From: Pelagibacteraceae bacterium AG-464-B04 | Lineage (GTDB): Bacteria; Pseudomonadota; Alphaproteobacteria; Pelagibacterales; Pelagibacteraceae | Reading direction: 5' to 3' | Assembly (NCBI GenBank): GCA_003209225.1 | Contig: QCRZ01000003.1 | Span: forward strand, 1-64,000 | Length of the DNA stretch: 64,000 bases | Part shown: in pieces, positions 23,405 through 43,094 of the stretch | Layout: each line of letters starts with the position of its first letter | Position numbering within the stretch: position 1 is the first letter of the stretch | Program-made: the position numbers and the translations under genes | The notes under the pieces: model-generated | Seen by the model: only the letters and a program-made list of their open reading frames with translations | The model's database searches: none | Told to the model about the DNA's origin: nothing

Positions 23405-23625
23405 AAACTTACTTAACCAAAAAGTTAAATTAAAATACAACGATTCAACTCCTAATAGAATAATTTTTCAACAATTAAAATATTAAATTTAGCATACAAA
23501 TAACTTTTAAAATAAACAAAAATTTGACCTTATAAAATATTAAAAATCTAAGGGCTGTTATATTGGTGGAAAAAAATGTTTATACATGAGAGCATAAGAT
23601 TTTGAAAAATAAGGAGGGGAAAACT

Positions 23626-24828: not shown

Positions 24829-24845
24829 TACTTTAAGTTAAAAGT

Positions 24846-26615
24846 ATGAGTGCTGAACAAAACATTAAAGACAACACCTCTAACAAAGAGGTGTTGTCTG
24901 ACAAATCAAAGACTATTACCGGTGATGTATATGTCCAAGATGTTCATAAATATTTTGGTGTAACTAAAGCATTAGACGGAGTTAATTTTAATGCAAATTT
25001 TGGCGAGATTCATGCAATCGTTGGAGGTAATGGTTGTGGAAAAAGTACACTAGCAAAAGTAATGTCGGGTGTTTTGCCAGTTGATAAAGGTAAAGTTTCT
25101 GTTATGGGTCACGTTCCTACTTCACCTGTTATGGCAAGAGAGGTGGGTATAGCTACTGTTTTCCAAGAAGTCATGATTGCAGAAGAAGCTTCTGTTGTAG
25201 ATAACTTATTTGTTGGTTCAGATAGCTTTTGGTACAAAAATTTAACACAAAGAGAAAAAGTTATAAAAGCACAAGAACTTATGGAAGATCTTGCAGGCGA
25301 ATATATAGATCCATATACTCAAGTATTCAATTTATCATTACCTATTAAAGCTTGGATCACGATTGGAAGAGCTTTTTTACGCGAAAATACAAAAGTACTA
25401 ATTCTTGATGAATCGTCTGCTGCTCTTGATTTTGATTCAACTGAAAGACTATTTAAAAAAATGAGAGAGTTAAAAGATAATGGTGTTGCAGTATTTATTG
25501 TTACCCATCGAATAGCAGAATTAATACGTATAAGTGATAAAGCAACTGTTATGAGAGACGGTAAAGATGTGGGAGTTCTAGAAAAAAAAGATCTTAACGA
25601 AAAAAATTTATTAGGTTTAATGACTGGGCGAGTTGAATCTGGAGAGAAATCTACATCTGTTGCGGTAAAAACAAAGACTGACAAAGTTGTAATGAGGGCC
25701 GAAAAATTAGTTGTTTGGCCTGAAAGTACACCAGTAAATATAGAAGTTCGCAGAGGTGAAATATTAGGTGTTACAGGTCTAGATGGTAACGGACAGGATG
25801 ACTTTGTTAAAATTTTAGCAGGTGTTCAAGAATCTCACGGTGGAACAACTGAAGTTTTAGATAAAAGTGACAAATTTGTGAAATATAATTCTTTGATGGA
25901 TGCCAAAAATAATGGTGTCTCTTTTGTTTCAGGAGATAGAAAAAAAGAAGGAATACTTCCCAATTTAAGTATTTACGAAAATTTAGTAGTACCACTTTAT
26001 CGAACAACAAGTAAAGCGGGGTGGTTAGGTTTTGTTAACTGGCTTGAGTTAAATGGTATATATGAATATGAAGTTGAAAGATTAAGCATTAAAACTGGTC
26101 CAAAAGATAATCTTATAGGTTCACTAAGTGGAGGAAATCAGCAAAAAGTCATGATAGCCAGATCTTTGGCAACACATCCAAAAATTCTTGTCTTGAATGA
26201 CCCTGCCAGAGGTATTGATGTAAGTACCAAAAGAGATTTATACGCACATCTTAGAAAATTTGTGGAAGAAGGAAATACAGTTATTTTCTTATCTAGCGAA
26301 CTAGAAGAGTTCATAGGCCTTTGTCCAAAAGTTGTAGTGTTTAGGCATGGAACTATATTCGATATTTTTGAAAATGAAAGAGTCAATGCTGATACTTTAC
26401 TTGCAGGAATGTTTGGACAAACTTCAGGAATAAGATCAACTAGTATAAGCAGATCAAATAATACAAGCATTTCAGAAAACACAAGAGATACCAAAACTAA
26501 TCTGAGAAATGTTGATGTTCAGGATAAAAAAATTATAAAAATTGTAGATTTTGATAGAGAAAAACAATCCAAAGAAAATAATTTAAACAAAAAAATAAAG
26601 ATTAAAACATTTTAA
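24846..26615 (+). CDS. Sugar ABC transporter ATP-binding protein (RbsA-like, two ABC domains)
   Basis: 589 aa; 'GGNGCGKSTLAKVMSG', second domain 'SLSGGNQQKVMIARSLATHPKILVLNDPARGIDV'; charged C-terminal tail. Confidence 0.9.
   Translation: MSAEQNIKDNTSNKEVLSDKSKTITGDVYVQDVHKYFGVTKALDGVNFNANFGEIHAIVGGNGCGKSTLAKVMSGVLPVDKGKVSVMGHVPTSPVMAREVGIATVFQEVMIAEEASVVDNLFVGSDSFWYKNLTQREKVIKAQELMEDLAGEYIDPYTQVFNLSLPIKAWITIGRAFLRENTKVLILDESSAALDFDSTERLFKKMRELKDNGVAVFIVTHRIAELIRISDKATVMRDGKDVGVLEKKDLNEKNLLGLMTGRVESGEKSTSVAVKTKTDKVVMRAEKLVVWPESTPVNIEVRRGEILGVTGLDGNGQDDFVKILAGVQESHGGTTEVLDKSDKFVKYNSLMDAKNNGVSFVSGDRKKEGILPNLSIYENLVVPLYRTTSKAGWLGFVNWLELNGIYEYEVERLSIKTGPKDNLIGSLSGGNQQKVMIARSLATHPKILVLNDPARGIDVSTKRDLYAHLRKFVEEGNTVIFLSSELEEFIGLCPKVVVFRHGTIFDIFENERVNADTLLAGMFGQTSGIRSTSISRSNNTSISENTRDTKTNLRNVDVQDKKIIKIVDFDREKQSKENNLNKKIKIKTF
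24869..24899 (+). promoter_or_regulatory. 13-bp perfect inverted repeat / RNA hairpin inside the annotated 5' end of the ATPase ORF
   Basis: AGACAACACCTCT-aacaa-AGAGGTGTTGTCT. Confidence 0.75.
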
Positions 26616-27154
26616 TGAAAACAGAAAATACGAATAAATATTATACTGACGAGGATTTAATTCACTTTGAAAAATTAAAGAATTTTAATAAATCCAAAGT
26701 TGATAAATTAAATAATAATCAAAATAAGAAACATCCCACCAGGTACGCTATGTCTGACAAAACATATTTTGATAAAATAATGAATACTAATAATGTTATG
26801 AGTTCTTTATCGAAACAGATCGAGAAAACAAAAAAAAATAATTACTATAGTTCATTGGACCTTAAAAATTTTGAAAAAATAAATCAATTCTCAACATTTA
26901 ATGATAATAAAACTATAAATAAAAACACTGAAGTTGCAAAAATCAAAAATAATTATACGGTCACTGATGTGAATGCATTTGATCAAATTATCAAATCTCA
27001 AGCTGATATAAAAAAACAAAGTGAAGATAAAATTAATTCAAGAATTGATATTAAAAAAATTAAGATTATTGATTTTAATAAGTTAAAAGAAAAAGAAAAA
27101 ATTCTTAAAAACAAAGTTGGCATTGATAAAATTAAAATAGTTTATTTTGATTAA
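26615..27154 (+). CDS. Hypothetical charged repeat protein inside ribose-type ABC operon
   Basis: 179 aa; overlaps ATPase stop; four degenerate ~35-45 aa units with YxxxDxxxF(E/D)(K/Q)I pattern. Confidence 0.6.
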   Translation: MKTENTNKYYTDEDLIHFEKLKNFNKSKVDKLNNNQNKKHPTRYAMSDKTYFDKIMNTNNVMSSLSKQIEKTKKNNYYSSLDLKNFEKINQFSTFNDNKTINKNTEVAKIKNNYTVTDVNAFDQIIKSQADIKKQSEDKINSRIDIKKIKIIDFNKLKEKEKILKNKVGIDKIKIVYFD

Positions 27155-27168
27155 TTAATTATTATTTT

Positions 27169-29502
27169 ATGGAATTAGTAGAAAGTGTAAAAAAAGTTTT
27201 CAGATCAAGCACAGATACTTCTTCAAATAAGTATCTTATGGTGCCAATTTTTATTTTCTTTTCACTATTAATTTTTGCAATGATAAGAAGCCCAATTATA
27301 ATTTCACAATCAGGTATAGGTAGTGCAATAATTCTTAGCGCACCACTCATATTAACAACTTATGCTTTAACATTTATTGTTATGGCCGGCCGCGGTGGTG
27401 TCGACTTGTCCATCGGTCCTTTTATGGGTTTTATAAATGTCAGTAGTATCCAATTATATGCTCATGGATATTTACAAACATCTATTGGTTGGTTTATTTA
27501 CGCCATCGCCATGGGTTTAATTTGGCAGTTGTTTTATGCTTTGGTTGTAGTGTTCGTGAGAGTTTCACCAATCATAGTAGCATTAGCAGGTTATTTAGCA
27601 TTCACTGGAATTAATCTAGTTATTCTATCTCGTCCAGGCGGTATTGCTCCAGATTGGTTAATACCTTGGGGAGAAGGTTTTACAATATTCAACGAAATAT
27701 TTCTTTTGCTGATTTTAGCAACAATTTTATTTTATATCATCACCCATACAGCTTTTTGGAGTCATCTAAAATTAATGGGCGCAGATGAGCGTGCCGCTTT
27801 TACAAGTGGTGTTAAAATTAACTGGGTAAGAATAGTTGCACACTTAATAGCTGGAATTTTTGCTGCATTATCTGCAATATGTTTTACTGCCTTGGTTGGT
27901 TCTGGAGATCCTATACAAGGAACTAAGTATACGCTTCTGGGAGTAACCGCACTGGTTCTTGGTGGAGCGAGTCTTGTAGGTGGTCGTGGTGGTGCTTTTG
28001 GGGCAATTTTAGGTGCTGGAACCCTTTATTTAATCAATTATATTTTAGTTACTTTTAGATTTGAAAGATTACAAAGTTTTGTCTCTGATTTATCTTACGG
28101 AGCTGTCCTAGTTATTGCTTTGCTTGTAAGCCTTCTTCTCCCATACGTACAAAGAGTAACAAAAGGTTTATCTGTTATGGTTTTTTTCATTCTTATGTCT
28201 TTTGCTAGTTTGTTTGTCGTAATTCATCAAGTATATGATCAACCTATTGTTGTTGAAGCTGAAGTTAAAGAAGACATAGATGAAGCTTCTAAAGCATATC
28301 AGAGAGGACAAAAGGTACGTAAATTAGATGCTACAGGAAATATTATTGTTGAAGAGGGTGAAGCAGGAACTACTACAGGAACGGGTACAAAACAAGGTGG
28401 ATCATTAGCTGGTCACTCTGTTGTTCGGTTTACAGAAACTCCAGGGACAATAGTGCTTTATGTAATTATTGGATTAGCGGGTCTTGCTCTTCTTCTTTAT
28501 CTTCTTTCCGTGCATCGGAATCCCTCTACTATATCTTTTGTAGTTGTTGTTGCCATCATAGTTGCGGGATTGATATTTGATCCTGGAGATAAAAAAAAAG
28601 ATTTGCTTAAAGATACTGAGCAGATAAGCTTACAATCAAATCAGGTAAGTAGTATTGAAACTTCATCTCCTCAATATTTTAGTCTTGAAAAAATTAATTA
28701 TTTTTCAAATATATCTGATACTGCTCTGATTTCAGGTACGTCATACAGTCTTATCTATATTGCAGGAGTAATTCTGCTCGTATCATTAATTGTAATTGTG
28801 ATGCTACCTCAATTTAGTACAAGGGCCAAATCAACAGCTATGATGTTTTTTCTTGCTGCCTTATCACTCGTTGTTTTAAAAGGTATCTCTTATAACAATT
28901 TAGAAGAAAGTACTGTTAAAAGTTTCTTTGGCATCCAAGGATATGGAGTAATATTAGTAATCTTGTTGCTTTTTGTTATTACCGCACCTTTTGTTCATTC
29001 AAAAATAAAAAATTTAACAAATGTTTATGTTTTTGGATTAGGTGTTTTGGGCATTCTTGCTGTATATTTTATTGGAGGAAATACTTTTATTCCCAACGAT
29101 CCTTCTCTTTATCAACCACAGATTATAACTGAATTAAATATTGGAGATATTTCTCAAATAAAATATACAGGACCTAAAAGATTTTTTTATGAAAACCTAA
29201 CTTCAAATTTTGCTCAAATTGCATACAGCATAGTTACAGTATTTTTATTACAATATTTTTTATTTTTAAACATGGGACACAAAGGTAGTTACAAACGCTT
29301 TGCTCCTTACTTGTATATAGTTATTTTTGCGGGATTTTTGTGGTCTGCAATATTTTATTCAGTAGGATATTCATTTTATAAAATCATTGCGGTATTTGCT
29401 ATTGGAATACCGATCACTCCTTTAGTATGGCAATTTATGAGAATCTATAGAGAGAAAATTGCGCGTGACAGACAATTAAGCCAATGGGAGGAGACAAAGT
29501 AA
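27169..29502 (+). CDS. Ribose-type (RbsC-like) ABC transporter permease with large C-terminal extension
   Basis: 777 aa; 'MAGRGGVDLSIGPFMGF', 'LVGSGDPIQGTKYTLLGVTALVLGGASLVGGRGGAFGAILGA' BPD_transp_2, then ~400 aa further TM-rich sequence. Confidence 0.85.
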   Translation: MELVESVKKVFRSSTDTSSNKYLMVPIFIFFSLLIFAMIRSPIIISQSGIGSAIILSAPLILTTYALTFIVMAGRGGVDLSIGPFMGFINVSSIQLYAHGYLQTSIGWFIYAIAMGLIWQLFYALVVVFVRVSPIIVALAGYLAFTGINLVILSRPGGIAPDWLIPWGEGFTIFNEIFLLLILATILFYIITHTAFWSHLKLMGADERAAFTSGVKINWVRIVAHLIAGIFAALSAICFTALVGSGDPIQGTKYTLLGVTALVLGGASLVGGRGGAFGAILGAGTLYLINYILVTFRFERLQSFVSDLSYGAVLVIALLVSLLLPYVQRVTKGLSVMVFFILMSFASLFVVIHQVYDQPIVVEAEVKEDIDEASKAYQRGQKVRKLDATGNIIVEEGEAGTTTGTGTKQGGSLAGHSVVRFTETPGTIVLYVIIGLAGLALLLYLLSVHRNPSTISFVVVVAIIVAGLIFDPGDKKKDLLKDTEQISLQSNQVSSIETSSPQYFSLEKINYFSNISDTALISGTSYSLIYIAGVILLVSLIVIVMLPQFSTRAKSTAMMFFLAALSLVVLKGISYNNLEESTVKSFFGIQGYGVILVILLLFVITAPFVHSKIKNLTNVYVFGLGVLGILAVYFIGGNTFIPNDPSLYQPQIITELNIGDISQIKYTGPKRFFYENLTSNFAQIAYSIVTVFLLQYFLFLNMGHKGSYKRFAPYLYIVIFAGFLWSAIFYSVGYSFYKIIAVFAIGIPITPLVWQFMRIYREKIARDRQLSQWEETK

Positions 29503-29509
29503 ATAAACT

Positions 29510-30925
29510 ATGAACAGATCTACTTTTCTTTTCTTTAAAGGGTTAGGGTTATTATTTGCAATCTTGTGCGGTATAGGAACTGCTGTATTGGGTTATTTTG
29601 ATGCTGCCGATTGGATGAATATTGTTGCATACTCTATTGCAGTAACAGGATTAATATTATGGGGTTGGCATCATTTTTCTATTAGATGGATTCATGGTGA
29701 TTTAAAGGAAAATATACTTTCTCAATTTCCAAAAAAAGAACAAACTGAAGGAAAAAATTTACAAGAAGAAGAGCATGAAGAAAATTTCTTCTTTAAAACT
29801 ATTCGTGATCATAAATGGAAAACATTAGCTTTTATTTTGCTAATACTTATTTTTATTTTTGTTTCATTTATTGCTGAAGGCTTCTTTTCTGGTCGTACGT
29901 TAGTATCTTTTTTAATTTTCCTAGGATTTATTATATTAATGGGAGTTGTTGGTCGACACATCAAAGGCCAAAAAAGTGTGTTCATTGGTATTTGTGTCTT
30001 AATTGCACTATTTATATTAGGATCACTAACCATAGGCGGATTTCTCTCACTTCTTAACATGAAATCAATGTTAGTGTTCGCAGCATTTTTAGGCTTAGCT
30101 ACAGTGGGTCAAACATTCGTTGCATTATTGGGTGGCCTTGATTTATCAATTCCATTTTTAATAGGAGCATCCAATGTTGCTCTAATGTCTTTAATCTCGA
30201 AAGGTGTGCCTCCATGGTTAGCTTTGGTTGCTGTGTTAATATTAGGTCTAATAGTAGGATTAGTAAATGGCATCTTAAGCTTTAGACTACAAGGTCAGGC
30301 ATTAATACTAACTTTAGGTGTTGGTTTTTTCGTTAAGGGAGGTGTTCAAATCCTTGTGGCGATGGGTACTTTTTCTGCCGGTACAGTTTTTGGTGTTGTC
30401 CCAGATTGGATGAGAAATATTGCTTCTATGAATGGTGAAACTGTGGGACTGCCTATTCCTCCCATTATTTTAATTTGGATTGTCGCTTCAATAATTATAA
30501 TTGTTGCTCTTCGTTTAACTAAATGGGGAAGAAATCTTTATTCTCTTGGAGGAAGTCGTTTATCATCGGCAAGATTATCTATTTCCGAAAGAGGTTACTG
30601 GGTTGGAGCTTATGTAATTAGTGGTTTTTTTGCAGCTTTAACTGGTGCATTACTTTTAGGTTGGAGCGGAGGTGGTTTTATAGGAGTTGGTGATACTTAT
30701 TTATTTTTAACAATTGCTGCAGTTGTTGTTGGGGGTACTTCTTTATTAGGAGGTGTTGGTGGATACGGATTAAGTGTAATTGGAGTTTTAATTTTGCAAG
30801 TAATTACAACAGTACTAATTGGTTGGGGTTTAAAATGGGAAGCACAACAATTTATATTAGGTTTATTAATTATACCAATGGTAGCTCTATACGCTAGATC
30901 ACCACACATTAGATCACAAATTTAG
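29510..30925 (+). CDS. Ribose-type ABC transporter permease
   Basis: 471 aa; 'GGLDLSIPFLIGASNVALMSL', 'TIAAVVVGGTSLLGGVGGYGLSVIGVLIL'. Confidence 0.88.
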   Translation: MNRSTFLFFKGLGLLFAILCGIGTAVLGYFDAADWMNIVAYSIAVTGLILWGWHHFSIRWIHGDLKENILSQFPKKEQTEGKNLQEEEHEENFFFKTIRDHKWKTLAFILLILIFIFVSFIAEGFFSGRTLVSFLIFLGFIILMGVVGRHIKGQKSVFIGICVLIALFILGSLTIGGFLSLLNMKSMLVFAAFLGLATVGQTFVALLGGLDLSIPFLIGASNVALMSLISKGVPPWLALVAVLILGLIVGLVNGILSFRLQGQALILTLGVGFFVKGGVQILVAMGTFSAGTVFGVVPDWMRNIASMNGETVGLPIPPIILIWIVASIIIIVALRLTKWGRNLYSLGGSRLSSARLSISERGYWVGAYVISGFFAALTGALLLGWSGGGFIGVGDTYLFLTIAAVVVGGTSLLGGVGGYGLSVIGVLILQVITTVLIGWGLKWEAQQFILGLLIIPMVALYARSPHIRSQI

Positions 30926-31776
30926 TCGTAGTAAAACATAGGTGCTTTTTTCCAATCAAGCCAGGAAACTGGATCATGACCCCAAACAACTTTTGCATCA
31001 TGTTCTTTTGCAATCCTTCTTAATTTTTTAACTGAAGCCGCAGCGTCAGAAGAAGAAGACACAAGTCCCGGTAAACATTTGTCACACCAGTGATCACCCG
31101 TGTAGCAAGCGTCACCAGTAAATAACATATAACCAGTTTTTGGAAGCTTAACCATTACAGATTGATGCCCAGGAGTATGCCCTGGTGTAAATATTATTTT
31201 TATAACACCGTCTCCATACACATCATAAAAATCAGTTTTTCTGCCCTGTAGAAATTTCCAACGGATATTTGGTTTGTCAAAATCTGCTCTAATGTAAGCT
31301 GGCCCAGAAAACCAATCAGGGTTAAATGCATAATCATATTCTAATCTTTGTGTTATATGAGTAGCGTTTGGAAAATGACCTATAGCACCTGAATGATCTA
31401 GATGAAGATGAGTTTGTATCACATATCTGATATCACCTGGGTTTGTATTTACAGTTTTTACTTGATCTCTGCACCATTCTGATTTTTTCATCACTGGGTC
31501 ATAGGCTTCAACCACATCTCCCCAATGTTTATGTTTATCAATAGCAGTTTCTATAGGCATTCCCCCATCAATAATAACATCTCCTTCAGGATGTTTAATT
31601 AAAAACCACGGCACAGGTATTTCATAAGGTTCTTCACTATGATTCATTTTTATAAATTTTAATTTTGTTTTAATTGATCCTGTTTGAAACATATATAATC
31701 TAACTCCTAAATTAAATTTTTTAGTTGATTCAAAAATATCTTTGTTTTTTTCTTTCATAAATATTTTTCCTACCAA
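30922..31776 (-). CDS. Metallo-beta-lactamase fold lactonase, AttM/BlcC-like
   Basis: 284 aa; 'THLHLDHSGAIGHFPNATHITQRLEYDYAFNPDWFSGPAYIRADFDKP' and 'IIFTPGHTPGHQS' match the AttM/BlcC lactonase family as recalled. Confidence 0.85.
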   Translation of the reverse strand: MVGKIFMKEKNKDIFESTKKFNLGVRLYMFQTGSIKTKLKFIKMNHSEEPYEIPVPWFLIKHPEGDVIIDGGMPIETAIDKHKHWGDVVEAYDPVMKKSEWCRDQVKTVNTNPGDIRYVIQTHLHLDHSGAIGHFPNATHITQRLEYDYAFNPDWFSGPAYIRADFDKPNIRWKFLQGRKTDFYDVYGDGVIKIIFTPGHTPGHQSVMVKLPKTGYMLFTGDACYTGDHWCDKCLPGLVSSSSDAAASVKKLRRIAKEHDAKVVWGHDPVSWLDWKKAPMFYYD

Positions 31777-32939
31777 GCTGATTGATAAATATTAAGTGCG
31801 TCTGTTTCTGTTAATTCACGTGGATTATTAACTAATAACCTTGTCTGTTTCATTGCATCGCGGGCCATTTTTTCACATGCATTTTTTGGAATATTAACTT
31901 CTCTTAATCTCTGAGGCAGACCTAATCTCTTCGATAAATTTTCTATCTTATCAATAAACTCTGAACAAACTGCCTGTGTTCCTCTATTAATATCTAAATT
32001 AGGAAAAACATACGGTGCAAGTTCGGCATAATAATTTGCTGCTTTTACATCAATACTGTTGAACCTAAGCACATATGGCAAAACAAGAGAATTAGAAAGT
32101 CCGTGAGAAATATGAAAAGTTCCTCCTATTGGATATGCAAGAGCATGGACTGCTGCAACTGGAGAATTAGCAAAAGCTTTTCCTGCTAGCATAGCTCCAA
32201 TAAGCATGTTTCCTCTGGCTTCGATATTAGAACCTTGTAAAACAGCAGTTTCTATTGAACCTCCAAGTAATTTTAGCGCTTCTATGGCTAACATTTTTGA
32301 AATTGGATTGTTGTTTTTATTGGAAGACGCGTATCCTTCAATAGCATGAACCATTGCATCGATACCTGTTGATGCTGTAGTTACTGATGGAAGACCTAGT
32401 GTTAGATCAGGATCTAAAATTGCTAAATCTGGCAAAATTATTGAAGAAGATACTCCTTTTTTTTCTTCTTCTCCTACTGTAATAATTGCAACAGGGGTAA
32501 CCTCTGAACCAGTTCCCGCTGTTGTAGGAACTAAAACTAGTGGCAAACGTGGCCCTTTAGCATTTTCCACTCCCCAAGCTGTATCTAAATCTTCGTTAGA
32601 ACCCAATATTAAGGACACAAGTTTAGCAACATCCATGGATGATCCTCCACCAAATCCAACAACACCCGATGCATTAAATTTCTTTCCAATTTTTATTGCT
32701 GATAAAAGAGTCTTTAGAGATGGGTCTGCTTCAACTTCATCAAATATTTCAACAGAACCATTTTTTTTAAGCTCTTCTATTGTGGGTGTTGTTAATTCTA
32801 AAGACATCAAATCTTTATCTGTTATAAAAAGTATTCGAGGACCCAGCTTTTTAGAAATTTCTTTACAGGAATTTTTTGCTTGACCGCTACCAAATCGAAG
32901 ACCAGGTGTTGTGTTAAAATTAAAAGAATTTAAAGTCAT
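31770..32939 (-). CDS. Iron-containing (type III) alcohol dehydrogenase, possible BlcB-like hydroxyacid dehydrogenase
   Basis: 389 aa; 'GFGGGSSMDVAKLVSLI', 'TTAGTGSEVTPVAII', 'HALAYPIGGTFHISHGLSNSLVLP'. Confidence 0.9.
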   Translation of the reverse strand: MTLNSFNFNTTPGLRFGSGQAKNSCKEISKKLGPRILFITDKDLMSLELTTPTIEELKKNGSVEIFDEVEADPSLKTLLSAIKIGKKFNASGVVGFGGGSSMDVAKLVSLILGSNEDLDTAWGVENAKGPRLPLVLVPTTAGTGSEVTPVAIITVGEEEKKGVSSSIILPDLAILDPDLTLGLPSVTTASTGIDAMVHAIEGYASSNKNNNPISKMLAIEALKLLGGSIETAVLQGSNIEARGNMLIGAMLAGKAFANSPVAAVHALAYPIGGTFHISHGLSNSLVLPYVLRFNSIDVKAANYYAELAPYVFPNLDINRGTQAVCSEFIDKIENLSKRLGLPQRLREVNIPKNACEKMARDAMKQTRLLVNNPRELTETDALNIYQSAW

Positions 32940-32945
32940 AATTTT

Positions 32946-35012
32946 TTATACAAAATAAATATAAAATACTATTGAAAATATTGCCATTCCTGTAAGTATT
33001 AATATCCAGCCATAGCCTGTTCCAACTTTGTCGATATAATTAACTTCCCCTTGAATTTCATCTGGCTGTTTATAAAGATCATTTGGTTGAATTGGTTTGT
33101 TGGGCAAAGTTGATAAATCCATCTTGCTAGCAAGAAACCAGATTAAGCCTATGCCAATAAACCACCAAATAAGTTGATATCCCCAAATAGAAGGTATTTT
33201 AAGAATCCAATATTCATAACCTGCGCCAGGGTTACCAAAAAAATCATTACCAACTATTTGCCCTGGTCCAACTCCAAAAAAAAGCCAAATCATAGCAATT
33301 ACATAAGCAAAAGATCTTAATTTTGTCCTGCTTGGATGGAGGCCCATATGATCATTTAAAAAATCATGAAACTTTTCTCTGTGTGACCTATTAGCATCAA
33401 TTTTTGTGATACTGGAAAAAGCAGAAATAGAAAAACAAATAAATACATTAAATAATAATCCCCATACACCTGAATATATTGTTAGCGGCCATCTTCCCCA
33501 AGGTAGCCTATTACCAGTAATTTGTTGTCCTATAGTTTCTGTTAAAATAACTATAATAATTCCAATAATTAATCCAAAAGTTGCTGCACCTTTTGTTATC
33601 CAAGGTAACCAGATCAAACCTAATAAGACAATTATAAACTGAAATGCTATAGGAATTGCTATTCCACTAAAGATAACCATTGCAGGTTTAGCAAAAGTTG
33701 CTACATAAAGTGAAGCTAAAAATATTACCATCATTATTATACGGGCAGTTGCAAGTTCTTTTTCCCAACTGATGTTTTGATTAACATAGGCTTTATATAA
33801 ATCTCTTGTGACAATACTCCCAGACGTCATTAGAAGTGCTGCTGAAGTTGATTGGAGGGCTGCAATTAATCCTACCGCCAACAAACCAGTTAACCAAAGA
33901 GCGTGTTTATCCATTAAACTTATTATGTGATAAATTAATAACGAATGATCTTTATTAGAAACTTCTGGTAATAAAGTATTTATTGAAAGACCACTATTAT
34001 TGATTTCTGCATTAGCTCCCAATAAACTTGCTCCAATTCCTTGATAGGTTGTAAATACAAATAATAATAATCCTACAATAACGGCGGATCCCCAAATCTG
34101 ATAGTAAGAAAAAGCTTTTGGATGTTTTACAGAATAACTCCACATAGAAAAGGAAGGTGAAAGAACTATTCCCATAAAAGAAATCGTAAAAGTAAAAATC
34201 ATCATTGCTGTCCAAGGACCACCTACTGCTTCATTTTTTCCTAGTCCCGCTACCCATTGAATAACACCTGGTAATGCAAAATAACTATTGTAATCACCAC
34301 CTCCATAACCATTGGTGTTTCCCCAGTTGTTTACGGATGTACTAGCTATTTTTGCTAATGATTTACCAAAAGATTCAATATCACCTACGAAAAAATAAAC
34401 AATAATTCCTAAAAGAATTATAGTTAAAAAGTAAAGCCAGGATTGAACCACTCCTATACTAACAATAGATTTAAACCCTCCTCGTGTTACATAAAATAAA
34501 ACAATTATGGAAATTACCCACATACCAAGTTCTCTAGAAACATATCCTGAAGTTAACGTATTTATTAAATATCCTGTAGCACCAAAAAAAACTGCCAGTA
34601 GAGGTATTGCTATAAATAAAGTTACTAAAACTGAAATAACACGAATTGTATCACTTTTGTAATAATCGTAATACATTTCGCCTGGTGTAATGTATCCAAA
34701 CTTTCTACTTAACATCCATTGTCTTTTAAAAAAAAATATACTTCCAAGAGGAACGGTTATTGCAATGAATGCTGTGCCTACATATTGAAAACCATCATGA
34801 AAAACAAGACTAGTATGAGATACTACTGTTAGTCCAGCAAAAGTAGCTGTGGTAGCTGCGAAAAAAAAAACCCATGAAGAAACATTTTTGTTAGCTAAAT
34901 AATATCTTTCTGGATTATCTGAATTATATTTTGATCCTCGTTCACCCCAAAAAAAACAATAAGCGGCATACAATAATATAAAAATAAATAACCAAAGAGA
35001 TTTTTCGGACAT
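32946..35012 (-). CDS. Sodium:solute symporter (SSS) family transporter
   Basis: 688 aa; many TMs; SSS-like 'RYYLANKNVSSWVFFFAATTATFAGLTVVSHTSLVFHDGFQYV', 'ALQSTSAALLMTSGSIVTRDLYK'. Confidence 0.85.
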   Translation of the reverse strand: MSEKSLWLFIFILLYAAYCFFWGERGSKYNSDNPERYYLANKNVSSWVFFFAATTATFAGLTVVSHTSLVFHDGFQYVGTAFIAITVPLGSIFFFKRQWMLSRKFGYITPGEMYYDYYKSDTIRVISVLVTLFIAIPLLAVFFGATGYLINTLTSGYVSRELGMWVISIIVLFYVTRGGFKSIVSIGVVQSWLYFLTIILLGIIVYFFVGDIESFGKSLAKIASTSVNNWGNTNGYGGGDYNSYFALPGVIQWVAGLGKNEAVGGPWTAMMIFTFTISFMGIVLSPSFSMWSYSVKHPKAFSYYQIWGSAVIVGLLLFVFTTYQGIGASLLGANAEINNSGLSINTLLPEVSNKDHSLLIYHIISLMDKHALWLTGLLAVGLIAALQSTSAALLMTSGSIVTRDLYKAYVNQNISWEKELATARIIMMVIFLASLYVATFAKPAMVIFSGIAIPIAFQFIIVLLGLIWLPWITKGAATFGLIIGIIIVILTETIGQQITGNRLPWGRWPLTIYSGVWGLLFNVFICFSISAFSSITKIDANRSHREKFHDFLNDHMGLHPSRTKLRSFAYVIAMIWLFFGVGPGQIVGNDFFGNPGAGYEYWILKIPSIWGYQLIWWFIGIGLIWFLASKMDLSTLPNKPIQPNDLYKQPDEIQGEVNYIDKVGTGYGWILILTGMAIFSIVFYIYFV

Positions 35013-35028: not shown

Positions 35029-35397
35029 TTAGGTACAACGCCTTGGCGCTGATTCACCTCGCTCTTTTTTAATTCTTTCAGCTTCTTTTTGAGCTTCTCC
35101 AATTGAAAGGAAAACTTTATCTTCAAATATAACAAATGGTTTTGCTCTATCAGCATTGAGCTGAGCTACACACCATTCTTTGCCGGGCTTAGTACACATA
35201 ACCATATAGGCTCCTGGTATAGGTCCATATTTTCTATTATTTAAAGTAAAAAGACTCTTAGCCAGTTCATTTAGTTTATCTTCGTCTAAATTTCCTAAAG
35301 CATTTTTTTCTAATTCATTCAAAGGAGTGACATTATCAGATCCTAGTACGCTTTTACCGCCTGTTCCTTCTGGTCTTGTAAATTGTGGTTTGTTCAT
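35029..35397 (-). CDS. Hypothetical protein in DMFase-like operon
   Basis: 122 aa; nearly abutting neighbours, same strand. Confidence 0.6.
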   Translation of the reverse strand: MNKPQFTRPEGTGGKSVLGSDNVTPLNELEKNALGNLDEDKLNELAKSLFTLNNRKYGPIPGAYMVMCTKPGKEWCVAQLNADRAKPFVIFEDKVFLSIGEAQKEAERIKKERGESAPRRCT

Positions 35398-37754
35398 TAA
35401 GGTAAAGGGCCTTCCTTTAAAAATCCTCTTATTGCATTCTCAAGAATTTTAGAAACATTGTTATTGTAATTATTGTAAGACAAGCTTCCACACCATGAAA
35501 GAGATCCAGGTGCAAACAATGCACCATTATTTGGAGTTTTGTAGTAAATCATATCTGCCCTAACCATTGGATTTTCAGTGCCTCCACCGTAATAACCTCT
35601 TACAGTAAAATGGATTTCTTCGTTAACTTGCATCATTAAGTTTGTATGATTTTCTGATCTTGCTAATAAATAGGCGTTATGCGGCGTTCCAAACTCTAGA
35701 TCATACCTATCAAGTTCAAGTCCAGCTGCACCACCTCCTACTAAACCAAAATCTCCGATTACTTCATCATCTCCTACACCTTCAAAAATCCATGAACATT
35801 CTGGTCTCTTGCTATCAGGTTCTCTTTTATAATAAGAAGAAACATCAAATCCATATGCTGTAAAAGTTAGACCACACACTTTGGATGGTATTCTTCCACG
35901 AGCCCTCCACATTCCACCATATTTTCCATCAAAAGCGTTATTGTATTCTCCTGGATTTGCTGTCCAAGCTCTGGTTCCAGCTTCACCTTTTCTAACTTCT
36001 ATAATATTTGGATTATCTGGATGATATTCGCTAATCCAATAAAAACCATCTGAACCTAAATATATCCATCTCCCACCATTTAATTGATAAGATTCATATG
36101 CTGCAAGCATTTTTTCTGAACTATATTCTGGATGTGAACCAGTTAAGACACATTTATAACGATTTAACATATCAACGCCTTCGATGTGTAAATCTTCGTC
36201 AGTTACGACATCAAATTCTAAATTTTTTTCTTCTAACCAATCTGTCAAATGAAGATCTGCGTTTAGTTGCCATAACGAAGGTGACAACCAATGCCTATAT
36301 TTTGGTCTCATATTAAGTATTGGTCTTAATCTTGATGAAATAGCTACTCCACTTCCATCAGAGTGTAGAGAATATGTTGATAATCCATATTCTCTGTGTT
36401 CATTTAAATATAAATCTGCCGCAGACATTACTGGCACCTTGCCAGCTAATAATTGTGCCACTACTGAGTTTGTTCCTAAATTATCATTTGAATAAGCCAT
36501 ATAACTATTAGAAGGAAGAACAAATAAAAGTTTTGAAGTTGTTTTACCTTTTGGAGGCTTTATTACAAAAGGGATAAAGTCTTCTGTTTCTGAAGAATCT
36601 TCGCCATTAATTCTTAATCTAGCGGCATATACACCGCTCTTAATTAAATCTGGCACCTCGTAAGTAAAATCAACTTCCCATCTAGCATCATCAATATCGT
36701 CATCATGAAAGTGAATAGCTCCATACTCTTCTGGTTTGTGATGAAAAACCATTTCATCTGCTGTCCAATTGTAGCCTGTCATTCCCCTACATGGTAAATT
36801 GATTATAAAACCATTTAAATGATTTGAAGTAGTATCAACTATATAAGTTGATGCAATATTTGTGGTTATATTTGCATGAAAATCCCAAGCTCCAATTACC
36901 TCTGATCTTAAGTCTGATGGACATCCACTATAGCCTCTTGCCAAAGACTCAATTTCTGCTTTTGATAATGCTTTTTTACTTAATCTTGGTCTATCGATCT
37001 TTCCATTATAAGTTAAAGTTTGTTCTGGCAATTCTACAGGATCGATTGCTTCTTTGTAATGCGCTCCTTGAATATGTCTCCCAGAACGATCATTTAAACT
37101 ACAAGCTGCCATTAAAAATGGCGCATCATTTGCTCTTGGTTTTAAATTATTAGTTGTTTCAACAAAAGATGTTGTTTCATCTGCGGGATAAAGTAATGAC
37201 ATACCCAATCCCCCATTAGTTGGAGTAACACAAGGCTCTTGGTAAAGTTTAACTTTTCCAGTTTCAGCGTCATAGCTAACTGCCACAAGGTACCAAACTT
37301 TTCTCATTAATTTTTTTTCACTAGAAAGATTCATGACTTGACCAGCACCATCTCCTATCATCGCTGAAAGGCATGCATTTTCATCTATGAAAAGTCCGTA
37401 TCCACTTTTAGCTTTATCATTCCATTTTGTTAAAACACCTTGTCTTCCTTTGTCTGGGGTTGTAGGAAATATATATGCTTGCAAAGTAAAGCTAGATGTA
37501 TTTAATCTTTGATCCTGCGGAATAACAATATAAGATCCACCATGAATTCTTTGGTTTCTTCCTTGATACGTTTTATTGCATTGTGCTCCGATTTCTTCTT
37601 CTTTATATCCAGGACCTTCTGGATTTGTATCTCCATGAATTAATCTAACAATTTGAACATCATAATTTTCTTTTTTTTCTGCATTTACATAAAACTTAAC
37701 TTTTTCTCCAGGAAAAGCTGAGTATTTGTCACTATAGCCAGTAATTCTTAACAT
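35397..37754 (-). CDS. N,N-dimethylformamidase large (beta) subunit-like amidohydrolase with N-terminal LamG/ConA-like domain
   Basis: 785 aa; 'FVLPSNSYMAYSND', 'STYSLHSDGSGVAISSRLRPILNMRPKYRHW', 'VLTGSHPEYSSEKMLAAYESYQLNGGRWIYLGSDGFYW' characteristic of DmfA2; ConA-like segment in N-terminal third. Confidence 0.88.
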   Translation of the reverse strand: MLRITGYSDKYSAFPGEKVKFYVNAEKKENYDVQIVRLIHGDTNPEGPGYKEEEIGAQCNKTYQGRNQRIHGGSYIVIPQDQRLNTSSFTLQAYIFPTTPDKGRQGVLTKWNDKAKSGYGLFIDENACLSAMIGDGAGQVMNLSSEKKLMRKVWYLVAVSYDAETGKVKLYQEPCVTPTNGGLGMSLLYPADETTSFVETTNNLKPRANDAPFLMAACSLNDRSGRHIQGAHYKEAIDPVELPEQTLTYNGKIDRPRLSKKALSKAEIESLARGYSGCPSDLRSEVIGAWDFHANITTNIASTYIVDTTSNHLNGFIINLPCRGMTGYNWTADEMVFHHKPEEYGAIHFHDDDIDDARWEVDFTYEVPDLIKSGVYAARLRINGEDSSETEDFIPFVIKPPKGKTTSKLLFVLPSNSYMAYSNDNLGTNSVVAQLLAGKVPVMSAADLYLNEHREYGLSTYSLHSDGSGVAISSRLRPILNMRPKYRHWLSPSLWQLNADLHLTDWLEEKNLEFDVVTDEDLHIEGVDMLNRYKCVLTGSHPEYSSEKMLAAYESYQLNGGRWIYLGSDGFYWISEYHPDNPNIIEVRKGEAGTRAWTANPGEYNNAFDGKYGGMWRARGRIPSKVCGLTFTAYGFDVSSYYKREPDSKRPECSWIFEGVGDDEVIGDFGLVGGGAAGLELDRYDLEFGTPHNAYLLARSENHTNLMMQVNEEIHFTVRGYYGGGTENPMVRADMIYYKTPNNGALFAPGSLSWCGSLSYNNYNNNVSKILENAIRGFLKEGPLP

Positions 37755-37776: not shown

Positions 37777-38196
37777 TCATTCTGCATACCTTTCTAATAA
37801 ATCCACAATTCTTTTTAAAAAAATAGCATGCTCACAGGCCTCTTCAGATGAGAAGGACTCTTCTAAAATTTTAACTGGCTGACCTCTTACTCCACTGACA
37901 ATACCTATTCTATAATCTTCAAAATCTTTTTTACATACTGTTACATATTTTTTTACCGCCATTGGTTGTCGTCTAAGTTTATCTAAAACAATTTGAAGCT
38001 CCTTGCTATGCTCAACCATTGGTTGGCCTTTGTGTGGTTGAGCAGCTTTACCAACAGGACAGGCTCTATGCTCTTCTATTAATTTATTTCTCATTTTTTC
38101 ATCTTTTAATAAAGGTAGAACATATTTTCTAGTTATAAAGTCATCAGTGCTTGTATGACCTTGATTTAGTTGTACTCCAGTTTTATCTTTGGTCAT
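37777..38196 (-). CDS. N,N-dimethylformamidase small (alpha) subunit-like protein
   Basis: 139 aa; 'RRQPMAVKKYVTVCKKDFEDYRIGIVSG...FSSEEACEHAIFLKRIVDL' parallels the DmfA1 C-terminal region; upstream of large subunit. Confidence 0.75.
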   Translation of the reverse strand: MTKDKTGVQLNQGHTSTDDFITRKYVLPLLKDEKMRNKLIEEHRACPVGKAAQPHKGQPMVEHSKELQIVLDKLRRQPMAVKKYVTVCKKDFEDYRIGIVSGVRGQPVKILEESFSSEEACEHAIFLKRIVDLLERYAE

Positions 38197-38199
38197 AAA

Positions 38200-39054
38200 T
38201 TATTTATTTGTCCTTTCATTAATAATTTTTAGTGCTTCTATTAAATAAACTCTAAAGACTTCATGATTTTCACTCATTGGAAAATGGCCAATATCTGGCA
38301 TTTCAATATAAACTCCACCTTTTATTTGTCTTGCAGTATTCTCTGTGGCTTCAGGTGGTGTTAAATAGTCATAAGTTCCTGTCATCATAATAACTGGGCA
38401 CTTATGTCCATCAATGTTTTTTAGTTCTTTTCTTAAATCGTGATCAACAGAATAAAAGTATAAATCTCCCTTAAAGGCTTCGGAACCTTGTGTGTAATAA
38501 TGCCAAGTTAACCATCTATCTTTTTCAGGTGATTGAGGCGCCATAAGATCCCATGTTCCACTACCACATACTTGAGCCGCATTAGCATGAGGATGTCTCC
38601 ACCAGTCTAAATAAAATCCAGGAGCGTGGTCCGCAGCTTCTACAGGAATCACTGCTCTAAATTTATTTGGGTAACGTAATGCAAGTTGCAACGCAACGTT
38701 CCCTCCAAAAGAAGATCCCATAAATATTGGGTTTTTTAAATCAAGAGCATCACATAGCTTAATTATAAAATTACAATAATGTTCAGCAGTTAATTTGTAT
38801 TCTTCTTTCCAAAATTCTTTATTATGAGGAGGGTCTGATTTACCGTGCCTTGGAAGATCATAAGCTATTACATTATAATTTTTTATTATTTCTTCGTCTT
38901 CAAGTAGTCCTCTCCATTGATGATTATGACAACCTGCTGTATGTTGGCAAATTAATGGTATTCCTTTTCCATTTTGAAGATAAAAAACTTTATATTCACA
39001 ATCATCTACTTCAATCGTAACATAACGACCTACTACACTATGATGTTTTACCAT
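38200..39054 (-). CDS. Alpha/beta hydrolase
   Basis: 284 aa; nucleophile elbow 'FMGSSFGGN', 'GTYDYLTPPE', 'IGHFPMSEN'. Confidence 0.9.
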   Translation of the reverse strand: MVKHHSVVGRYVTIEVDDCEYKVFYLQNGKGIPLICQHTAGCHNHQWRGLLEDEEIIKNYNVIAYDLPRHGKSDPPHNKEFWKEEYKLTAEHYCNFIIKLCDALDLKNPIFMGSSFGGNVALQLALRYPNKFRAVIPVEAADHAPGFYLDWWRHPHANAAQVCGSGTWDLMAPQSPEKDRWLTWHYYTQGSEAFKGDLYFYSVDHDLRKELKNIDGHKCPVIMMTGTYDYLTPPEATENTARQIKGGVYIEMPDIGHFPMSENHEVFRVYLIEALKIINERTNK

Positions 39055-39087: not shown

Positions 39088-39477
39088 TTAGACAGGTACT
39101 CCCGATTTTCTTAATAGTTCAAATTGAACTGTAAAATTTCTTAAGTTTTTCATTAACACTAGGTGATTACCTTCAATTTTTAAATCTTTTCTAAAACTTG
39201 CTGACCATATTCCATGATACATAGGCTTTGGCATTGGTTGACTAAATTCTTTCCAGGTATTTGCTGAAGCTCGAAGAGCAAAATCATATGGATCTAAAGG
39301 CCCTGGATTGGTATTAATATTTTTAACCTTTCCATCATGCATTTCAATAATGACCTTTGCTTTTTCCATATCAAACATAAAAGAGCATGAGTAATATTTT
39401 GCCATTGCTCCAATAGTTTCATTACTATTTGTAAGATCTTCAAATTTTTTTGCCCAATTATCTAGTTCACTACTCAT
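39088..39477 (-). CDS. SCP2-like (sterol carrier/lipid-binding) small protein
   Basis: 129 aa; overall pattern 'YSCSFMFDMEKAKVIIEMHDGKVKNIN...FALRASANTWKEF...GNHLVLMKNLRNF' similar to SCP2. Confidence 0.5.
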   Translation of the reverse strand: MSSELDNWAKKFEDLTNSNETIGAMAKYYSCSFMFDMEKAKVIIEMHDGKVKNINTNPGPLDPYDFALRASANTWKEFSQPMPKPMYHGIWSASFRKDLKIEGNHLVLMKNLRNFTVQFELLRKSGVPV

Positions 39478-39492
39478 AATTTTTTACTTTCG

Positions 39493-41469
39493 TTACTTAG
39501 AACCTTTGGTTCCTTTGGTTGGATCTTTATCAAAGTTCATATGAAAATCTTTTTTTGGATTTTCGTAATCACCTAGGATGTTTCTGATGTTACTTATTTC
39601 GCCTGGAGCCATTCCAATCTCTTTAAGCAAACTATCTAGAAATGGTTGGTGCGCTCTATAACGTAGTGCGGAGCTAACTACATTATCTGCTAAATTACCA
39701 CTTCTTCTTCCAGATCCTCCTCCTGTAGTTACTGCTTCACCACTGTCTCCTGTGCCAGAAGTTCCACTAAAGCCAGGTAAACCGTTAACATCAACTATTT
39801 TAATATCTCCAATATTTGCCATCGGTTTAACACTTTCTCTAATAATTACTTCAATTTTGTCAGCAAGTTTTAATCTTAGAGCACTTCTTCTACTTGCATC
39901 ACTTCTCAGGTTCTCAGCAGCATTTAATGCTTCTTTGCCAGCTGCATCTATTTCATATCGCAATTTTGCAGCCATAGTTGCAAATCTATCCTGTTCAGCT
40001 TTTGAAGCAGCGGTTATAACATCAACTTTCTTAATACCATGAGCTTTTTCAACGTACATAGCTGAATTTGCTTTTTCTTCAGCTTCTAATGCCCTAGCTC
40101 TAGTAGTTTGTTCTTCAGCTTTAGATTTCAAAACTTGTTTTGATTTATTTATAACTTCAAGATTTTTTTGATGTTCCTCTATACTTAATCTTTTCGCTTT
40201 ATCTATATCAAGAAGTCTTGTTTCTCTTTCTGTTTCAATTCTGTGAGCATCTAAATTTCTTTGTTGAGCAATTTTAGCGTTTTTAATACCTTGTTCAGAA
40301 ATTATTTGAGCTTCCTCAGCATCTTTTTGTCTTTCTGACTGCTCTTTAATTATAGTAGCTTTCTCTTGTGCTCTCTTCATATCAACAAGTCTTTGTTTTT
40401 CTAAACGTGCATACTCACTTTCTTTATCTAAGTTTAAAATTTTAACTTCGGTCTCAAGATCTTTTTGTCTAATTTCATACGCTGCATTTTTCTCCAATTC
40501 ATTTTGTTCTTTTCGACGTTTTTCAATTTCTTCGATCAACCTTGTTTCAGTTAGTTTTTTTTCAACTTCGATAACTTGATTTTGAGAAATTTTTGCAACT
40601 TCAATTTGTTCTTGGCTGGTTATTTCAGCTTCTTCAGCTTCGCGTTCTGTTTCTGCTCTTTTTTTAATAGTTTCAGCTCTTTCGCTTGCTTTTTGAATAG
40701 CTATTTCTCTTTCTTGTTTGTACCTAGAAAATTCTTCGTTCTTCTTAATTTCTAGTTCTTTTTGAACTGTTTCTAAATTTTTATTTTCAATTGAAATTCT
40801 TGTATCTTGTGTAATATCATTTCTTTTTTTCTTTCTTTCCTCAATTTGTTCGGTTAATTGCGTTAAACCTTGAGAATCAAAAGTATTTGCTGGATTAAAC
40901 TGTTCGATTGGAGTTTGATCCAAGGATAAAATAGAGACTGTTTCTAGTGCCAGACCCGTGTGTCCTATTGATGCGTCCGCAATTTTTGTAACTTCTTTTA
41001 CAAATTGTCCTCTATTTTCTTGTATTTCATCAAGTGTCATTTTTGCAGCGACTTCCCCTAGAGCATCAGCAAAACGACCTTGAACTACCTCTCTTAAGTG
41101 TTCGGGATCAAGTGTTCTGTTACCTAAAGTTTGCGCTGCAGTTGCTACGGCTTTTTGTTCTGGTGGAACTTTAGTAAAAAATTCCGTTACTAGTTCTGCT
41201 CTCATTCGGTCTTTTGTTATCAGAGATTTTTCTCCACTTCTTTTTATAGTTATGCTTAAAGTACGCATTCCCACTTGAGTAATGTTGTGAATTATAGGTA
41301 AAACAAAGGCTCCTCCCGATATAACTACCTTCTCGCCAAGCATTCCTGTACGTACAAATGAAACTTCCTTTGATGATCTTCTATACAGCCAATGCAATAG
41401 ATAAACTATAATCGCTACTGCAAGTGCTAGTAGAATTATTGCTGCTATTATATCTGCTCCTCTAGTCAT
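39493..41469 (-). CDS. Flotillin / SPFH-domain membrane scaffold protein
   Basis: 658 aa; N-terminal TM, SPFH region 'GGAFVLPIIHNITQVGMRTLSITI', long Glu/Lys/Arg coiled coil with AxE repeats, 'MAAKLRYEIDAAGKEALNAAENL'. Confidence 0.9.
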   Translation of the reverse strand: MTRGADIIAAIILLALAVAIIVYLLHWLYRRSSKEVSFVRTGMLGEKVVISGGAFVLPIIHNITQVGMRTLSITIKRSGEKSLITKDRMRAELVTEFFTKVPPEQKAVATAAQTLGNRTLDPEHLREVVQGRFADALGEVAAKMTLDEIQENRGQFVKEVTKIADASIGHTGLALETVSILSLDQTPIEQFNPANTFDSQGLTQLTEQIEERKKKRNDITQDTRISIENKNLETVQKELEIKKNEEFSRYKQEREIAIQKASERAETIKKRAETEREAEEAEITSQEQIEVAKISQNQVIEVEKKLTETRLIEEIEKRRKEQNELEKNAAYEIRQKDLETEVKILNLDKESEYARLEKQRLVDMKRAQEKATIIKEQSERQKDAEEAQIISEQGIKNAKIAQQRNLDAHRIETERETRLLDIDKAKRLSIEEHQKNLEVINKSKQVLKSKAEEQTTRARALEAEEKANSAMYVEKAHGIKKVDVITAASKAEQDRFATMAAKLRYEIDAAGKEALNAAENLRSDASRRSALRLKLADKIEVIIRESVKPMANIGDIKIVDVNGLPGFSGTSGTGDSGEAVTTGGGSGRRSGNLADNVVSSALRYRAHQPFLDSLLKEIGMAPGEISNIRNILGDYENPKKDFHMNFDKDPTKGTKGSK

Positions 41470-41487: not shown

Positions 41488-42186
41488 TTAAGTTGTTTTT
41501 CTCGTATCGTTTAAAGCAGCACTGTAAATTATCATTCCAAAAATGATTTTGTTTAATACATCGGCTAAGTTGTAAATAATATTTAAACTGTTAATATTTA
41601 CTCCTCCAGCCAAGTGCTCAATAAAATATCCTATATGGTAAATTGAAAAACCAATGGTTATAATCAACCTATTTGCAAAAAATGCCATTTGAACATTTTC
41701 ATTGTTACATGAAGCATTTTTTCTCCCCGCATCTCCCATGTAAAGTTCACCAATAATGTAAAGCCAACCAACAATACCCACTAAAAATCCAAGAGTAACA
41801 CTCATATATCCGTAAGCTCCTAATAGCTGAGCTATAACCCAGACAAGTGTTCCAACAAGGAGTCTCCAGAACATTCCTCTCTTAACGTCTGTTACCGACT
41901 TAAGCATTACGTAAAAAGTTAATATCGTCAGTGGGAAAGTTAACATCCAATCAATATATCTTAATGCTGTAGGCGCCTGACCATTTAAAATCCATAAATT
42001 CTTTGCATAGAAGTAGTGTATAGATGACATTAGGGCTATTACCCCAACAAGATTCATAACCGTTCCCCATCTGTTCGACAGACGACCTCTTTCTAAGAAG
42101 AAAAATATCGCTGCCCCTATCATTGCAACCGAGATTAACCAAAAAGATCCACCGACGACGTCTTGCGGCAGCAATAATTTGTTCAT
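41488..42186 (-). CDS. Microbial (type I) rhodopsin, divergent proteorhodopsin-like
   Basis: 232 aa, seven hydrophobic helices; helix C 'ALRYIDWMLTFPLTILTFYVML', helix E 'GWLYIIGELYMG', helix G 'NIIYNLADVLNKIIFGMIIY' with Schiff-base Lys; good RBS AAAAGGAG. Confidence 0.95.
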   Translation of the reverse strand: MNKLLLPQDVVGGSFWLISVAMIGAAIFFFLERGRLSNRWGTVMNLVGVIALMSSIHYFYAKNLWILNGQAPTALRYIDWMLTFPLTILTFYVMLKSVTDVKRGMFWRLLVGTLVWVIAQLLGAYGYMSVTLGFLVGIVGWLYIIGELYMGDAGRKNASCNNENVQMAFFANRLIITIGFSIYHIGYFIEHLAGGVNINSLNIIYNLADVLNKIIFGMIIYSAALNDTRKTT

Positions 42187-42455
42187 GAACTCCTTTTCAG
42201 ACTAATTTTTTTTATTTTTGCTATTTAAATTCTAATTTTTGCACAAATCAATCAAATAAAATTGAATTTAAGAAAAAGATCTTTCAAAATCTTTTAAAAT
42301 ACCTCTAAAAAAAATTATTTTTTTACAATTCAATTAATACTAGAATTTTTTCAAAGTTCTCTTTTTGGTTTAAATAATTGAGCAACGGATGGGATGTTTA
42401 TAATTTTAAAATTCTGATTTCGTTAAATATTTATTATCTATATTATTAAGCTTGA

Positions 42456-43094
42456 ATGCTTTCCAAAGTGATAACAATAGCACAACAAAAAGGGGGTACG
42501 GGTAAAACAACATTAGCGGTGCATCTAGCTCTGGCTTTTGTTAAATACCATAATCTTAAAGTTGTCATTATTGATACCGATCCTCAGGGTAGCCTTGGTA
42601 AATGGTTTATGGTTCGATCAAAAAAAAATTCTCTGAATAAAAATTTAACCTTTAAAACTGCTAGCTTATGGGGTGCACAGTATGAATCAAAAACATTTAA
42701 AAAAGATCATGATATTATTATTATAGATACTCCACCTAAAATTGAATCTGATGCACGTCCATCGATAGAAGCTGCGGATTTAGTTTTAATACCAATGACG
42801 CCATCTCATGTTGATTTTTGGGCTACTGAAGCAATTATTGAAATTGCAAAAAAAGCACAAAAAAAAGTATTGGTACAAATCAATAGAGCAAATCAAAGAT
42901 CTAAACTTATTAACAAAACACACGAGTACATTAATAGTATTAAAGTTTCAGCTACAAATATAATAATTGGAAATCGACAAATTTACCCATCATCTATGGG
43001 TGAAGGAAAAACAGCTGTGGAAAAACAAAAAAAAAGTAAAGCTGTAGAAGAAATAAAAAAACTATCTGAACAAATTTTATTAGAATTAAAATAA
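42456..43094 (+). CDS. ParA/MinD-family ATPase
   Basis: 212 aa; deviant Walker A 'QQKGGTGKTTLAVHLA', 'VIIDTDPQGSLGKW', 'IIIDTPP'. Confidence 0.9.
   Translation: MLSKVITIAQQKGGTGKTTLAVHLALAFVKYHNLKVVIIDTDPQGSLGKWFMVRSKKNSLNKNLTFKTASLWGAQYESKTFKKDHDIIIIDTPPKIESDARPSIEAADLVLIPMTPSHVDFWATEAIIEIAKKAQKKVLVQINRANQRSKLINKTHEYINSIKVSATNIIIGNRQIYPSSMGEGKTAVEKQKKSKAVEEIKKLSEQILLELK

Follow-up and report, generated by a model that had tools for sequence, protein, structure and literature searches.

A SAR11-type flotillin-associated rhodopsin in a Pelagibacteraceae genome and its possible retinal-independent role

The DNA analysed here, a 64,000-nt stretch from Pelagibacteraceae bacterium AG-464-B04 (hereafter the window), encodes a rhodopsin in which several residues expected of a proton pump are replaced. 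What is this protein, and is it still a retinal photoprotein? The first question has a clear answer: it is the SAR11 flotillin-associated rhodopsin (FArhodopsin) of the DTT-T type, encoded in a normal flotillin operon. It is thus neither a new rhodopsin type nor an unrecognised protein, the family having been described already. FArhodopsins are carried by bacteria that rank among the most abundant in the ocean.

A SAR11-type FArhodopsin in a flotillin operon

The ORF map places the rhodopsin gene at 41488–42186 on the minus strand, where an ATG start, with a Shine-Dalgarno-like AAGGAG upstream, opens a frame of 232 aa. The product matches the Pfam family Bac_rhodopsin (PF01036; E 2.8e-27, 96.1 bits, cut-off 24.6), and a search of NCBIfam returned no model for a rhodopsin of this kind. 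In the alignment with SAR11 pumps its N-terminus is ~23 aa shorter than that of proteorhodopsin (PR) and has no signal peptide. Residue positions are cited in PR numbering alongside those of the protein itself, and codons, all on the minus strand, were computed arithmetically.

Helix C reads RYIDWMLTFPLTILTFY, helix F GFSIYHIGY, helix G NLADVLNKIIFG and helix B SSIHY, which corresponds to D97, T101, T105, T108, F197, H201, D227, K231 and H75 of PR. The residues and codons singled out by the initial annotation were read correctly. The equivalents of Asp97 and Thr101 are both present in the 232-aa ORF. The proton donor Glu108 is indeed replaced by Thr90 (41917–41919; Thr in 46/46 SAR11-type FArhodopsins), which confirms that the donor carboxylate has been lost, and the spectral-tuning site, PR 105, is occupied by Thr87 (41926–41928; Thr in 40 of the 46). 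Helix F has Phe180 at Trp197 (41647–41649) and His184 at Pro201 (41635–41637), each in 46/46. Lys213 at the Schiff-base position (PR K231; 41548–41550) is retained and invariant (46/46), and the helix B His is retained in this protein too. Four features had been passed over: the replacements V102 to F84 (41935–41937), M134 to W116 (41839–41841) and G138 to Q120 (41827–41829), with Phe, Trp and Gln, respectively, in all 46 sequences, and a flotillin gene that follows after 18 nt. Phe84 and Gln120 coincide with the H84 and E120 positions of PsFAR, a FArhodopsin of known structure.

The residues that look odd beside a pump are signatures of the clade, fixed or nearly fixed in the 46 SAR11 FArhodopsins; since the orthologues repeat the Phe, the His and the two Thr, these are not chance changes. 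F102, T108, W134, Q138, F197, Y200, H201, D227 and K231 (PR numbering) are invariant among the 46, and Asp79, Asp209 and His57 (numbering of the window protein) are invariant or nearly so. At PR position 97, 44 sequences have Asp; the other two (L024 and L040) have Glu at this primary acceptor and hence the motif ETT-T. The remaining full-length FArhodopsin types keep Trp at PR 197 and Pro at PR 201 of helix F; position 102 is taken by His or Phe in these types, and position 138 by Glu in most of them.

Phylogeny agrees with the motifs. The window protein is 95–97% identical to its orthologues, including those of AG-390-L03 and SCGC AAA288-N07. In the maximum-likelihood tree, an analysis that the initial annotation had proposed, it groups with the FArhodopsins (14 rows, PsFAR included; support 100/99), within their SAR11 subclade (100/100) and outside the DTE clades. 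Of the motifs known to replace DTE in FArhodopsins (DTT, DTL or DNI), it has DTT, together with the Thr (Thr87) characteristic of the Pelagibacterales tuning site. The mirror-proteorhodopsin family was also considered and rejected, as sequence, fold and tree all place the protein with FArhodopsin.

The published FArhodopsin taxa comprise three streamlined marine taxa and mostly unassigned freshwater contigs (PMC10308929). In our searches, DTL-Q FArhodopsins accompanied by flotillin were also seen on two contigs labelled Hyphomicrobiales (OFTM302) and Chromatiales (Ww634), the bin labels being used as given (L050 and L051). At the end of a Roseibacillus contig (L054:1-75), a weakly matching ORF includes 25 aa that agree exactly with the window rhodopsin; this contig is possibly chimeric.

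The gene following the rhodopsin encodes a flotillin of 658 aa (39493–41469, minus strand; Pfam Flot 1.5e-28, Band_7 1e-10). The spacer from the rhodopsin stop is 18 nt, the flotillin gene has exactly the published length of 1977 bp, and flotillin is the next gene in 51/51 orthologous loci. It is also the sole Flot-domain match in this genome, which is 63% complete. Further along the same strand lie a conserved 129-aa protein (39088–39477), SCP2-like by a PF02036 match below the cut-off (E 0.0076, 17.0 bits against 21.3); an alpha/beta hydrolase (38200–39054); a conserved 139-aa protein with no Pfam match (37777–38196); an N,N-dimethylformamidase beta-subunit-like protein (35397–37754; PF20254, 8.9e-91), known from the published cluster; a sodium:solute symporter (32946–35012; PF00474); an iron-containing alcohol dehydrogenase (31770–32939; PF00465/PF25137); and a metallo-beta-lactamase-fold hydrolase (30922–31776; PF00753). 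The window therefore carries the cluster of membrane sodium symporter, N,N-dimethylformamidase, hydrolases, SCP2-like protein and translocator reported by Haro-Moreno 2023 (PMC10308929), with the SCP2 match remaining under its cut-off.

On the other side of the rhodopsin gene, the ORF map shows a 269-bp spacer (42187–42455) separating it from a divergent ParA/MipZ-like ATPase gene (42456–43094, plus strand) that is found in 43 of the 51 orthologous loci. The spacer is likely to be the promoter region of the operon; long conserved border spacers flank the published cluster (PMC10308929).

An ABC importer (23602–30925, plus strand), made up of a binding protein, an ATPase and two permeases (PF13407, PF00005 and PF02653 twice), converges on the operon in the window. 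It is of the monosaccharide type, and its best NCBIfam relatives, YtfR and XylG, all fall under cut-off. In some lineages (L041, L042, L050 and L051) the importer genes share the strand of the rhodopsin and immediately precede it. The same order is found in two alphaproteobacteria of 4.1 and 4.5 Mb (G584 and G677; 97 and 96% complete), which carry a sister of FArhodopsin (L118:9618-12416, and L119). There the operon runs binding protein, ATPase, two permeases, rhodopsin, flotillin, 129-aa protein and alpha/beta hydrolase, so that even in these distant operons the 129-aa protein stays beside flotillin. The gene order common to all these loci points to a shared core of importer, rhodopsin, flotillin and hydrolase.

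Retinal binding and the altered pocket

The initial annotation held that the protein should still bind retinal, as a slow-cycling pump, a photosensor or a retinal protein with some other function. Little supports this. DTT-T rhodopsins expressed in E. coli, in assays performed without flotillin, gave neither pigment nor a light-driven pH change, and working pumps mutated to DTT-T ceased to pump (PMC5864233). A slow or non-canonical outward proton pump dispensing with the internal donor would fit the retained D97 and T101 equivalents, and pumping in E. coli was seen for a DTQ-Q rhodopsin of SAR11 that came from 770 m and has no carboxylate at the donor site (PMC5864233); against the results for the DTT-T proteins themselves, however, such a pump is very improbable. 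The initial annotation was right to set the protein apart from the canonical SAR11 pump; it lacks the donor carboxylate and lies outside the DTE clades.

The pocket points in the same direction. Residues fixed across the clade fill pocket positions, and a published AlphaFold analysis predicted that conserved FArhodopsin residues clash with retinal; freshwater relatives without the Schiff-base Lys have been reported as well (PMC10308929). Our AlphaFold models of the window protein and of a PR control (pLDDT 87.8 and 84.8) agree on the fold. In the former, helix F is modelled as unbroken over residues 163–192, where His replaces Pro, and in the control it is broken at 181–182; this continuity is no more than a soft hint. 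When the side-chain volumes of the pocket are roughly added up, FArhodopsin (3183) comes out above ordinary pumps (2978–3016) but is not separated from the pump paralogues of the same genus (3191–3218). The measure does not discriminate, which counts as a reservation about a retinal-independent protein, and it is not taken as proof.

Other observations weigh on the side of retinal. If the protein never bound retinal, the conservation of Lys213, of the counter-ion residues Asp79 and Asp209 and of His57 would be odd; the cell could import retinal from its surroundings; and the negative results in E. coli were obtained without flotillin. The protein might be a photosensor or slow photoprotein that folds and becomes pigmented only with the help of flotillin, of special lipids or of an unusual retinoid. 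The sister protein of G584 and G677 lends this some weight: it has a DTV-Q motif, joins the FArhodopsin clade with support of 100/99, keeps the Lys, Trp197, Pro201 and Val102, has Ala at 138 and is the only rhodopsin match in either genome, where RPE65-family oxygenases are present and no Blh was found. Against a photosensor stand the lack of pigment in E. coli (PMC5864233), the fixation of the pocket substitutions, the failure to find a retinal-making gene in the five genomes of the window's genus (below) and the published observation that the cluster holds no transducer gene (PMC10308929). We regard this explanation as unlikely, if worth keeping in mind.

Retinal synthesis, pump paralogues and selection

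The genus of the window is represented by five genomes, few and incomplete assemblies. In these five, neither Blh (PF15461) nor an RPE65-type oxygenase was found; nor was a full-length CrtY, the matches to lycopene cyclase being at most partial, N-terminal and low-scoring. Matches were obtained elsewhere, with Blh and CrtY in the SAR11 control genome G003 and RPE65 in two alphaproteobacteria and two named controls. Given the completeness of the assemblies, the chance of overlooking in every one of the five a gene that they all carry is p ~0.0016. Both blh and crtY are scarce at depth (PMC5864233).

The window's genome (966 kb and 63% complete, so that a DTE copy could be missing) contains one further rhodopsin, on contig 2 (G000:C2:56750-57490, minus strand; L001:1501-2241). 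Its helix C, KYIEWLITMPLLAIQFY, has the motif ETQ-L with Lys at the position of Arg94, which sets this rhodopsin apart from the DTE pumps; its appearance is that of a pump on which constraint has relaxed or whose function has changed. It also has Trp at PR position 155. The ETQ motif is not mentioned in Olson 2018 (PMC5864233). Among the other four genomes of the genus, three have pumps, of the types DTE-L, DTQ-L and DTQ-L (the DTQ-L sequences being L086 and L087), and in G398 (65% complete) FArhodopsin is the only rhodopsin found. Outside the genus, six SAR11 genomes combine FArhodopsin with Blh and a DTE-Q pump, and another FArhodopsin-bearing genome, G309, has a DTQ-Q pump and no detected Blh.

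Selection on the two kinds of rhodopsin differs. Pump dN/dS is 0.19–0.32 in the window's genus against 0.07–0.14 in the Blh-containing genomes, whereas that of FArhodopsin is 0.016–0.06 without Blh and 0.017–0.045 with it, which indicates equal constraint in both sets of genomes. Over all 46 sequences the median pairwise dN/dS of FArhodopsin is 0.027, a strongly purifying value, with synonymous sites near saturation. The pump genes of the genus are thus under relaxed constraint and FArhodopsin is tightly constrained; its conservation appears to depend neither on the ability to make retinal nor on an intact pump. That the gene is a decaying pseudogene, as the lost function-linked residues could suggest, is already contradicted by this purifying selection (dN/dS ~0.02–0.03 over the 46 sequences), and also by its place in a single tight operon and its published transcription (PMC10308929); the idea is barely credible.

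The same comparison bears on the published hypothesis that FArhodopsin helps an ordinary pump, forming hetero-oligomers with proteorhodopsin in flotillin rafts and so improving the use of dim light. In every genome with FArhodopsin, its authors also came upon a standard pump at another locus (PMC10308929), and the six SAR11 genomes with Blh and a DTE-Q pump conform to it. However, the paralogue in the window's genome is ETQ with Lys for Arg94 and that of G309 is DTQ-Q, neither with a detected Blh; FArhodopsin was found alone in G398, and the nearly complete G584 and G677 carry the sister only. The contrast within the genus, where the pump is relaxed, retinal synthesis is undetected and FArhodopsin is unchanged, separates a pump helper from a retinal-independent role and weakens the former, which we now consider quite improbable. 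What is new here is this set of findings: no Blh, RPE65 or full-length CrtY found in the genus, a degenerate ETQ paralogue, and relaxed pumps beside a constrained FArhodopsin.

Proposed role and closest known systems

Our preferred reading, which we hold to be probable though far from certain, is that FArhodopsin is a retinal-independent seven-helix membrane subunit that acts with flotillin to organise uptake and breakdown proteins, rather than a retinal photoprotein. It would keep the seven-helix proteorhodopsin fold without working as a photoprotein, the donor carboxylate being gone and Phe84, Trp116, Gln120, Phe180 and His184 probably filling or reshaping the positions that retinal occupies in pumps. 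Co-transcribed with flotillin (PMC10308929), it would be produced together with it and probably share its membrane microdomain. There it may serve as a structural or ligand-sensing subunit around which the ABC importer, the Na+ symporter and the hydrolases of the cluster are organised, a role that would depend neither on retinal nor on a working proton pump. The operon, the conservation, the pocket substitutions and the lack of dependence on detectable retinal synthesis or on an intact pump were observed here; from them we infer the absence of retinal in vivo, physical contact with flotillin and a part in transport.

A wider version of this proposal, for which we would give slightly less than an even chance, is that FArhodopsin has left photobiology: starting from an ancestor with an open pocket, it would have become a retinal-independent part of flotillin microdomains and stayed constrained in deep SAR11 that have lost retinal synthesis and are losing the pump. 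The operon with the open-pocket sister offers an ancestor-like protein for a direct test of retinal binding.

The closest described system is that of AG-390-L03 (L013; Haro-Moreno 2023, PMC10308929), whose FArhodopsin is 96% identical to the window protein and differs from it by point changes only. Haro-Moreno 2023 described this second rhodopsin of Pelagibacterales as having DTT, Thr at the tuning site and ~23 missing N-terminal residues, and as lying ~16 nt from a 1977-bp flotillin gene (PMC10308929). The two share DTT, the tuning Thr, the short N-terminus, the adjacent 1977-bp flotillin and the downstream gene order. The genomes differ in that the AG-390-L03 type has a bona fide DTE pump, and the window's genome has the ETQ paralogue and no detected Blh. 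SAR11 rhodopsins of the DTT-T type are known from SCGC AAA288-N07 and from deep water at Station ALOHA (PMC5864233). The AAA288-N07 protein (L046), explicitly named by Olson 2018, who described the DTT-T motif (PMC5864233), is 95% identical, has the same motif and tuning residue, and is the nearest row to the window protein in the tree, with nothing notable setting the two apart.

The best match in the PDB is PsFAR (9r21, released 2025), by both sequence (E 4.9e-88) and fold (TM 0.95). Its pocket is altered at the identical positions 84 and 120, as His84 and Glu120, but in helix F its Trp and Pro are unchanged, and PR 134 is still Met; the SAR11 type, unlike PsFAR, combines Phe84 and Gln120 with Trp116, Phe180 and His184. 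A second entry of 2025, 9r23, is the PsFAR H84V/E120G double mutant, in which the residues of PR are restored. A further PDB entry, 8cnk, is a proteoopsin that holds decanoate and no retinal. The blue and green proteorhodopsins (DTE; for example 4jq6 and 7b03) have the fold, the Lys and the counter-ion Asp in common with FArhodopsin, but they are ~38–50% identical to the window protein, which falls outside their clades and has other residues in place of the donor Glu, of Gly138 in the pocket and of Trp and Pro in helix F.
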